DNA from: an uncultured bacterium
GTDB taxonomy: Bacteria > Nitrospirota > Thermodesulfovibrionia > Thermodesulfovibrionales > Dissulfurispiraceae
Assembly: GCA_937949555.1 (NCBI GenBank)
Contig: CALEDV010000025.1
Coordinates: 1-64,000 of the forward strand
Direction: 5' to 3'
DNA length: 64,000 nucleotides
Positions 27,885-62,240 of this stretch are shown here, one piece after another; positions within the stretch are counted from its first letter, which is position 1; the number at the start of each line of letters is the position of its first letter. The translations under genes were made by a program, and so were the position numbers. The notes beneath the pieces were generated by a model. That model did no database searches and was not told the origin of the DNA. It saw only the letters and a list, made by a program, of their open reading frames with translations.

Positions 27885-28868
27885 TTAGGCAATCCCCTGT
27901 TTGAGTATATCATGGAGGTGGATTATTCCCTTTACGCAGTAATTACTATCTGGCACCACAAGGGTAGTGATTGAGTTTTGCTCCATTAACCCTAAGGCTT
28001 TAACTGCAAGTTCCTCTTCGGATATAGTCTTTGGAGTCCTCGTCATTATCTCACCAACATTCATCTCAAAAAAATCCTTGCCCCATTTTTCAATGCCCCG
28101 TCTAACATCTCCGTCGGTGATTATTCCGAGTATTTTCCATGAATCATCGGTGATGACTGCAATGCCAAGACGTTTGGAAGATATCTCAACTACCGCTTGA
28201 GTGATTGTACTGTTTGGAGATACTATTGGGATTGCGTCTCCCCTGTGCATCAGATCAGCCACCTTTATGAAAAGCCTTTTGCCTATAGCCCCGCCAGGAT
28301 GTAGAAAGGCAAAATCCCTTTCCTGAAATCCCCTTTTTGACAACAGAGCCACAGCAAGGGCGTCACCCATAGCCATTGTAGCGGTTGTGGATGCTGTGGG
28401 TATCATATTTATATGACATGCCTCCTCCTTGACTGAAACATCAAGGCTTATATCCGATGCCTTGGCAAGGGTGGAGTTTGGGTTGCCTGTCAGGGAGATA
28501 AGGGTAAGGTTGAATCGTTTCAAGAAGGGTATTAATTCAATTATCTCCTTTGTCTCTCCACTGTTAGACAGAGCAATTATTATATCCTTTGATGTAACCA
28601 TGCCCAAATCACCATGGCTTGCCTCAGCAGGATGGAGAAAGAATGCAGGAGTGCCTGTAGATGCTAAGGTAGCGGCTATTTTCTTTGCTACAAGACCAGA
28701 CTTGCCCATACCTGTAACAACCACTCTCCCTTTGCTTTCGTATATCGTTTGAACGGCCCTTAGAAAACTCTCGTCAAGCCTGTCCCTTAAAGCGAGCACT
28801 GCTTCTGCCTCAGTCTGCAGCACCCTCTTGGCTGTATCAATTAAGTCTTTTTCTTTATCCAGTTCCAT
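27885..28868 (-). CDS. kdsD: D-arabinose-5-phosphate isomerase (KpsF/GutQ family, SIS + CBS)
   Basis: VVVTGMGKSGLVAKKIAATLASTGTPAFFLHPAEASHGDLGM; two CBS segments. Confidence 0.93.
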   Translation of the reverse strand: MELDKEKDLIDTAKRVLQTEAEAVLALRDRLDESFLRAVQTIYESKGRVVVTGMGKSGLVAKKIAATLASTGTPAFFLHPAEASHGDLGMVTSKDIIIALSNSGETKEIIELIPFLKRFNLTLISLTGNPNSTLAKASDISLDVSVKEEACHINMIPTASTTATMAMGDALAVALLSKRGFQERDFAFLHPGGAIGKRLFIKVADLMHRGDAIPIVSPNSTITQAVVEISSKRLGIAVITDDSWKILGIITDGDVRRGIEKWGKDFFEMNVGEIMTRTPKTISEEELAVKALGLMEQNSITTLVVPDSNYCVKGIIHLHDILKQGIA

Positions 28869-29015
28869 TGGGCGACTCCTCTTAAAAAATTAAAGCTTAT
28901 TTTTGCTGATAACTACATTGCATCAAGGTAATAAGGTTAGGGAGCATTCCATTCTGTTTTATGCCCCTGTTACAACATTATGAGTTTAGCAAAGAAATTA
29001 TAAAAAGTCATTCCA

Positions 29016-29045
29016 TTGACACCTTAAATTTGCTTTAGTTAAAAT
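29016..29045 (+). promoter_or_regulatory. Sigma70-like promoter upstream of the riboswitch
   Basis: TTGACA (29016-29021), 18-nt spacer, TAAAAT (29040-29045); expected start point near the aptamer 5' end. Confidence 0.65.
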
Positions 29046-29050
29046 ACCTT

Positions 29051-29150
29051 AGTAAAGGGGAGTAGCAATGGGGCGGTAATCGTCAGTACGTCTCTTATGG
29101 AAAAGGGGCCGGTTCCGCCAATTAGAAATCTAATATGCAAGACCTTTACC
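29051..29150 (+). ncRNA. yybP-ykoY-type manganese riboswitch aptamer
   Basis: Hallmarks AGTAAAGGGGAGTAGC…CGTCAGTACG…ATGCAAGACCTTTACC; P1 GTAAAGG(29052-29058)/CCTTTAC(29143-29149); GGCGG/CCGCC; ATTAG-AAAT-CTAAT hairpin. Confidence 0.88.
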
Positions 29151-29187
29151 GCGAGGATATTCTAAATGTTCGTGGTAGAGGTTTTTT
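29143..29187 (+). terminator. Riboswitch-controlled intrinsic terminator
   Basis: CCTTTACCGCGA / TCGTGGTAGAGG can form 12 contiguous pairs (with G-U), followed by TTTTTT; 5' arm overlaps the P1 3' strand. Confidence 0.85.
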
Positions 29188-29238
29188 AGTCTAAGGGGTT
29201 GCGGTAATTTCGTAGACTGAAAAAAAGGAGGTATAACT

Positions 29239-30090
29239 ATGAATGGTTTAAAGACAATGGTCTTGATGGTCACTTTAACATTGATGCTTGTAGGGTTTGG
29301 GGCAATACTCGGAGGGAAGTCAGGCATGACCATAGCCCTCATAATGGCCTTTGTCATGAACTTTATAACCTATTGGTTCAGCGACAAGATAGTGTTAAGG
29401 ATGTATGGGGCAAAGGAGGTCAGTGAGGCCGAGGCACCTCAACTCTACAGCATGGTGAGAAGGCTCTCGCAGCGGGCTGGATTACCTATGCCAAGGGTCT
29501 GCATTATGGAGGAGGACCAGCCCAATGCCTTTGCAACAGGCAGAAATCCAGAGCATGGCACAGTAGCAGTTACCACTGGCATTATGAGGATACTCTCAAA
29601 GGAAGAACTGGAGGGTGTCGTTGCCCATGAGCTGGCACATATAAAGAACAGGGATATCCTTGTAAGCACCATTGCTGCCACAATAGCAGGCGCTATAAGC
29701 TATCTCGCCCAGATGGCCCAATGGGCTGCTATCTTTGGCGGTAGAAGCAATGATGATGAGGGAGGCAGCAATCCTATTGCAGCCATTGTTATGATGATAG
29801 TGGGACCCATTGCTGCTATGCTTGTTCAGATGGCAATATCGAGGGCAAGGGAGTATGGAGCTGACGAGGGAGGAGCTCAGATATGCGGCAATCCAATGTA
29901 TCTTGCAAATGCATTAAAGAAGCTCCACATGGCTTCACAGCAGATTCCCCTGCAGGCAAACCCTGCCACATCGCACATGTTTATTGTTAACCCCTTAACA
30001 GGCGGAGGCATATTAAAGCTATTCAGCACCCATCCACCTATTGAGGAGAGGATCCACAGGCTTCAGGAGATGAGGATGGGTTATAGATAG
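29239..30090 (+). CDS. htpX: Membrane M48 protease HtpX
   Basis: [54 protein letters not shown] (HExxH); [13 protein letters not shown]. Confidence 0.95.
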
Positions 30091-30318: not shown

Positions 30319-30816
30319 ATGGAAAAGGCGCAGGTATTGATTCTTATGGGTAGTGACAGTGACCTGCCTGTTATGGAGAAGGCTGCAGAGGTGTTGCGGG
30401 ATATGGGAGTAAGCTATCACATGGATATATGCTCTGCCCATAGGCTTCCTGATAAGACTGCCGATTTAGCAAGGTCTGCAAGAGACAGGGGAATAGAGGT
30501 TGTTATTGCTGGTGCAGGCATGGCGGCCCATCTTGCTGGCGTTATTGCTGCTAATACTACACTGCCTGTTATAGGTGTTCCTTTGAAATCAGGCGCCTTA
30601 AAGGGAGTAGATGCCCTCTATAGCACTGTTCAGATGCCTCCAGGAATCCCTGTTGCAACGGTGGCTATTGATGGAGCAAAGAACGCAGCATATCTTGCCT
30701 GTTCAATATTGTCAATAAAATATCCATCTATGGTTGAGAAGCTTGATAATTTTAGGTCTGAGACAAGAGATGCCCTTCTTAGAAGATCTGAAGAGCTCAG
30801 GAAAAACAATCCTTGA
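30319..30816 (+). CDS. purE: N5-carboxyaminoimidazole ribonucleotide mutase
   Basis: LMGSDSDLPVMEKA; SAHRLPDKT; VIIAGAGMAAHLAGVIAANTTLPVIGVPL. Confidence 0.95.
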   Translation: MEKAQVLILMGSDSDLPVMEKAAEVLRDMGVSYHMDICSAHRLPDKTADLARSARDRGIEVVIAGAGMAAHLAGVIAANTTLPVIGVPLKSGALKGVDALYSTVQMPPGIPVATVAIDGAKNAAYLACSILSIKYPSMVEKLDNFRSETRDALLRRSEELRKNNP

Positions 30817-62030: not shown

Positions 62031-62240
62031 CCCAACATTGCCCTTAGGAATTTATAACAAAGGGGAGTATGCCTCAAGGCCTTTATACTGCCACAGGATT
62101 ATCTAAAAAGGGCCTTGGCCTTAGGTTGCCCTTGGGTGAATGCCTTCGCATTGTCTTTAGGGTGTAAGAGGTCTTACAAATAGGTGTCGCAATAAAGCCT
62201 TTTTCGGCATACCCCACCTTTTTTCTATCGGCAATTTTTG
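62031..62240 (-). repeat. Dispersed MITE-like repeat, subfamily 1, full-length (inverted)
   Basis: Reverse complement aligns over ~210 nt with 15331-15545. Confidence 0.9.

Follow-up and report, generated by a model that had tools for sequence, protein, structure and literature searches.

In the literature searched, yybP-ykoY riboswitches act on genes for transporters and for metal proteins of the TerC type. A first-pass annotation of the DNA analysed here, a stretch of 64,000 nucleotides from an uncultured Nitrospirota bacterium (the window), placed an element of this class in front of htpX, the gene for a membrane protease. This raises the questions of whether the leader carries a manganese riboswitch, how such a switch would act and why a protease should be its target.

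The htpX gene and its leader

The gene behind the leader spans positions 29239-30090 on the forward strand, starts with an ATG at 29239 and is preceded by a Shine-Dalgarno sequence, AGGAGG, at 29226-29231 (+). Its product, an M48 zinc metalloprotease of the membrane with a HELAH motif, scored 417.4 bits with the NCBIfam equivalog model NF002826 (cut-off 369) and 133.5 bits with Pfam PF01435. By family model and catalytic motif together, the predicted protein is HtpX, an M48B metalloprotease, and its nearest relatives belong to Thermodesulfovibrionia-type Nitrospirota. The gene lies between a kpsF-like gene (27885-28868, reverse strand) on one side and a purE-like gene (30319-30816, forward strand) on the other.

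The annotation had described a TTGACA-N18-TAAAAT promoter ahead of the aptamer and htpX directly after it, and both are where it said. The promoter, of the sigma-70 type, occupies 29016-29045 (+) and agrees with the consensus at 11 of 12 positions, the -35 box TTGACA (29016-29021) and the -10 box TAAAAT (29040-29045) being separated by a spacer of 18. A TTGACA or TTGACT box recurs 41-44 nt upstream of GGGGAGTA in 10 of 12 htpX leaders. The RNA is predicted to start about 7 bases past the -10 box, and GTAAAGGGGAGTAGC, with which it would open, makes up the 5' half of a yybP-ykoY aptamer.

Detection of the aptamer by covariance models

The annotation had named a search with the Rfam model RF00080 as a check on its proposal, and this search came out below threshold: there was no match in the window, either at the gathering cut-off or at E ≤ 10, and none at 29052-29149 when the whole genome was searched. 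The result does not overturn the proposal, since the verified Mn switch of E. coli mntP (NC_000913 1905461-1905557; L138:962-1058) also misses the gathering cut-off, with 41.6 bits against 45. We therefore put the miss at the htpX leader down to the Rfam model, and the RF00080 test is insensitive, not negative. In the RF00080 alignments the P1 strands are modelled as unpaired and a GUCAACAUACUUGG core is favoured. A large branch of the Mn riboswitches is poorly detected by this model, and surveys based on Rfam miss such targets as a result.

Two models were built here, and both match two loci, L082 and L048, that RF00080 also detects. R1, built from ten htpX leaders, identified 46 sites in 35 of 198 Nitrospirota genomes, as well as sites in 54 of the 113 genomes from the order of a Peptococcaceae bacterium (Bacillota). 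R2 was derived from 40 R1 sites that precede Mn-exporter-type genes only (P-type ATPase, TerC or GDT1) and includes no htpX leader. With R2, the alignment of which was guided by R1 and hence is mildly circular, the aptamer in the window scored 72.7 bits (E 3.1e-17). In the genome-wide search it obtained an E value of 1.2e-15, the next best match having 0.58, and the match is far beyond chance. R2 also recognised E. coli mntP (36.8 bits), and the two scores together indicate that the htpX-leader aptamer shares ancestry or structure with accepted members of the class. A second, weak R2 match at window position 62057 (18 bits) has P1-like ends only and lacks the core; it was taken as chance, as were matches of the leader to the Rfam families CRISPR-DR19 and snoR111, both below cut-off.

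Anatomy of the aptamer

The R2 model, covariation and the fold of the 98-nt segment delimit a complete Mn2+ (yybP-ykoY) aptamer at 29052-29149 (+), in a variant without the P2 hairpin. The 5' strand of the switch helix P1.1, GTAAAGG, lies at 29052-29058 (+), overlapping GGGGAGTA with loop L1 at 29057-29064 (+), which is present in 10/10 leaders of our alignment A2. This alignment holds ten htpX leaders; L048 and L010, which MAFFT misaligned, were left out. The P3/L3 core, CGTCAGTACG, is found at 29081-29090 (+), and the 3' strand of P1.1, CCTTTAC, at 29143-29149 (+), where the aptamer ends with GCAAGACCTTTAC. Both conserved loops are thus present at 29052-29149, namely L1 (GGGGAGUA) and L3 (GUCA with the Mn-binding adenosine). 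CGTCA is found in L3 of all ten leaders in A2, and GTCA in that of 38 of the 40 exporter leaders used for R2.

Compared with dinucleotide shuffles, the fold of the leader is better by 4.9 sd, and the minimum-energy fold of the 98-nt aptamer alone (-28.7 kcal/mol) contains the aptamer helices. Across the ten htpX leaders, 95.5% of the cells in P1.1, P1.2, P3 with its extension and P4 are paired. Two-sided changes affect 12 of the 29 pairs in these leaders, with none of 500 shuffles reaching any of five measures, and 26 of the 29 pairs among the 40 exporter leaders. Only 4 nt separate P1.2 from P3 at 29052-29149, leaving no P2 hairpin. Loss of P2 as a speciality of htpX leaders was ruled out, as 39 of the 40 exporter leaders likewise have 4-8 nt in its place; P2 therefore varies within the class and was not treated as defining.

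The hairpins could in principle be an ordinary htpX leader or attenuator that resembles yybP-ykoY by chance or is a decayed sequence, as the absence of an RF00080 match might suggest. RF00080 misses the cut-off on mntP too, however, and the alternative would leave unexplained the score of 72.7 bits from a model that never saw htpX leaders, the covariation and the intact core residues. At the level of sequence we consider it already refuted and give it next to no weight. R2, the covariation and the Mn-binding residues instead bear out the claim that the conserved yybP-ykoY elements are present.

Manganese as the probable ligand

The crystal structures show Mn bound by phosphates of L1 and L3 and, through its N7, by an invariant adenosine that is A41 in L. 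lactis; A10 of L1 makes the cross-helix contact (PMC6754395). In the htpX leader A29085 corresponds to A41 and A29061 to A10. The same aptamer precedes GDT1/UPF0016, TerC, Mn/Ca-type P-type ATPase and Na/Ca-exchanger-type genes in Nitrospirota and in other phyla, and Mn would be the simplest ligand for the aptamer in front of htpX. The central proposal of the annotation, a Mn riboswitch of the yybP-ykoY class ahead of htpX, thus draws support from covariation, an independent model, the Mn-binding residues, the use of the same aptamer by exporter genes and the conservation of the pair described below.

The fold might instead sense another divalent ion or a broader set (e.g. Co, Cd, Ni or Zn), with htpX answering that metal. 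HtpX and beta-carbonic anhydrase, another gene found behind such aptamers, are usually zinc enzymes, which would suit this idea. It would also suit the expectation, expressed in a review, that yybP variants of altered specificity explain unusual target genes (PMC7266159). The Mn-coordinating adenosine and both loops nevertheless fit the Mn-sensing consensus, and they also agree with the aptamers that other Nitrospirota have upstream of GDT1, TerC and P-type ATPases, so that we consider a different metal improbable.

A terminator that competes with the switch helix

The annotation was silent on a terminator that overlaps P1.1 and is the source of the switching mechanism. This intrinsic terminator, AGACCTTTACCGCGA ... 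TCGTGGTAGAGGTTTTTT, was identified by folding at 29139-29187 (+) and uses the 3' strand of P1.1, which is common to the aptamer and the terminator, so that the expression platform is coupled to P1. When the aptamer is folded with the next 39 nt, the terminator takes this strand (-47.2 kcal/mol for the whole, -24.8 kcal/mol for the terminator), and it also beats P1.1 when the full leader is folded. A simple terminator scan reported none, since its limits on stem pairs, loop and tail were too tight for a stem of this length that is interrupted by an internal loop. A terminator overlapping P1.1, with a U-rich tail, was found in 30/30 parsed htpX leaders (30 of 32 were parsable by the script). In the minimum-energy fold the terminator U-tract also pairs with an A-tract directly 5' of the Shine-Dalgarno sequence, giving an AU-rich hairpin at 29182-29224 (+).

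In L. lactis and X. oryzae, the same arrangement of terminator and P1.1 has been read as Mn stabilising P1.1 and turning expression ON by anti-termination (PMC6754395, PMC11087558). By the overlap in 30/30 parsed leaders, high Mn should likewise turn htpX ON. RNA polymerase would start at or near 29052. At low Mn, CCTTTAC would be captured by the terminator and transcription would stop ahead of htpX. At high Mn, L1 and L3 would dock around the ion, with A29085 in the role of A41, and the docked loops would hold P1.1, block the terminator and allow htpX to be transcribed. The computations establish the sequence, the structure, the class membership and the conservation of the pair, and the anatomy shows two competing folds, with ON and OFF judged from unconstrained folds; that the RNA binds Mn and that Mn turns the switch ON we infer from homology and anatomy. 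That a yybP-ykoY (Mn2+) riboswitch controls htpX by switching its transcription ON is, on this evidence, very probable.

The htpX leader shares with L. lactis yoaB and X. oryzae yybP-ykoY the switch helix P1.1, the L1 sequence GGGGAGUA, P3 with GUCA in L3, the P3 extension, the P4 hairpin and GCAAGACC, as well as the competition between terminator and P1.1 and, by our reading, anti-termination (PMC6754395, PMC11087558). It differs from them in having 4 nt where P2 creates a four-way junction, which would yield a three-way junction, and in that its target is a protease and not a transporter. E. coli mntP resembles it in matching R2 and in having the same L1 and P1/P4 elements, but was published as a translational switch and its target is a Mn exporter.

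Conservation of the riboswitch-htpX pair

As the annotation had proposed, we examined whether the pair is conserved in related genomes, and it is. The aptamer stands 5' of htpX in at least 13 Nitrospirota genomes, the source genome included (13 of the 35 with matches), and in 9 of the 54 Bacillota genomes with matches, where the core is mostly of the GTCAACAGTACGG kind. Several more named Nitrospirota records contain the pair. When the 80 htpX loci closest to this one were taken from named genomes, a dozen had the aptamer upstream, with a distance from GGGGAGTA to the htpX start codon of mostly 149-250 nt. One genome (G223) has two htpX genes with an aptamer each, and one of these aptamers may have a P2 hairpin.

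In a quick tree of HtpX sequences, nearly all members of one Nitrospirota clade have the leader, which is also found in a second set from Nitrospirota and in sets from Bacillota, that is, in separate HtpX clades. The regular expression used to label the tree missed the aptamers of L174 and L177, both of which are found by R2; the number of changes on the tree was 8, also with corrected labels, and is given little weight. L002, whose HtpX is the closest relative (89%), lacks the aptamer at htpX and has no match in the rest of its genome, which indicates that the leader can be lost and that the control is dispensable in some species. The htpX leader at L010:1118-1213 has kept P1, P4 and the terminator and lost the GTCA of L3 and the -35 box; it is perhaps decaying or altered in ligand.

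The riboswitch may have been acquired or kept by proximity, in which case HtpX would be a general membrane stress protein that is merely induced and has no special role in Mn stress. Its nature as a general quality-control protease would be compatible with this, as would the absence of the aptamer from some close relatives (L002 and L021). We consider it rather unlikely, given that the pair is kept in most of one Nitrospirota HtpX clade and reappears in other Nitrospirota and Bacillota clades, where the aptamers have diverged while the architecture is the same.

A possible link to membrane proteolysis

Conservation of the pair in two phyla suggests that some bacteria meet Mn excess by making a membrane protease. 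In B. subtilis, HtpX and FtsH co-purify with the TerC proteins, one of which is under a yybP-ykoY riboswitch, and cells that lack the TerC proteins cannot do without FtsH (PMC10550928). In the same species, Mn excess causes YqgP, together with FtsH, to cleave the Mg importer MgtE, and the cells are thereby protected (PMC7231995; reviewed in PMC9334652). Because of these two findings we propose a role for HtpX in clearing proteins at high Mn. During Mn excess, extra HtpX would remove membrane proteins that are mismetallated, stalled or leaking metal, or else an importer that leaks Mn; that this is the purpose of the switch we put at about an even chance. The role in Mn stress or in the quality control of mismetallated membrane proteins that the annotation suggested for HtpX is plausible and fits the published links between Mn and membrane proteolysis. 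As in our proposal, Mn excess raises membrane proteolysis in B. subtilis and cells are protected, although YqgP is a rhomboid protease activated post-translationally (PMC7231995), whereas HtpX would be controlled by a riboswitch.

In its broader form, our proposal is that Mn2+ riboswitches exert direct control over membrane proteolysis in Nitrospirota and Bacillota. HtpX would be a dedicated arm of the response to Mn excess beside exporters and, in some genomes, beta-carbonic anhydrase, removing Mn-damaged membrane proteins or a Mn-leaking importer and thereby taking the role of YqgP/FtsH in B. subtilis. We see this as evenly balanced between right and wrong. A conserved membrane protease target would connect the sensing of Mn directly with the quality control of membrane proteins, and the pair makes the action of HtpX under metal stress testable.

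In the source genome, the assembly of which is 88.9% complete, the R2 search found no other credible Mn aptamer, and the MntP, TerC and GDT1 families were not found. Two P-type ATPases that are 44-47% identical to the riboswitch-linked one are present without an aptamer, and only one of the four M48-family genes, the htpX at 29239-30090, has an aptamer leader.

The RNA itself belongs to the known yybP-ykoY class. Its conserved protease target, by contrast, seems not to have been reported in the 5.39 million open-access papers searched, where htpX and yybP-ykoY were found together only in the TerC paper (PMC10550928), in two versions, and the gene tables of the founding papers of 2015 and 2004 may mention htpX. 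A link between the riboswitch and htpX is not described in the accessible part of the TerC paper.

Manganese-type aptamers ahead of other genes

In six Nitrospirota loci, a Mn-type aptamer lies directly 5' of a gene for beta-carbonic anhydrase (Pro_CA, PF00484), at L123:6526-6618, L124:6624-6716, L125:6698-6803, L126:5546-5650, L108:988-1092 and L135:2793-2867. The aptamer is located 5-6 kb downstream of a copy of htpX in four of the six, and no paper in the literature searched joined Mn-type aptamers with beta-carbonic anhydrase. Mn-type aptamers also precede genes for a CitMHS/ArsB-like permease and for UPF0182 membrane proteins (L117:1304-1410 and L121; L135:1911-2005 and L137). Seven Bacillota loci (L212, L213, L215, L217, L218, L220 and L222) have Mn-type aptamers upstream of Na/Ca-exchanger-family genes, apparently with a P2 hairpin (CCCGG...CGGG). 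At L187 (G275 C8:25851-26208 and 28863-28974), two tandem Mn-type aptamers stand within 360 bases 5' of a gene for a large membrane protein, and a third on the same contig precedes a P-type ATPase gene.
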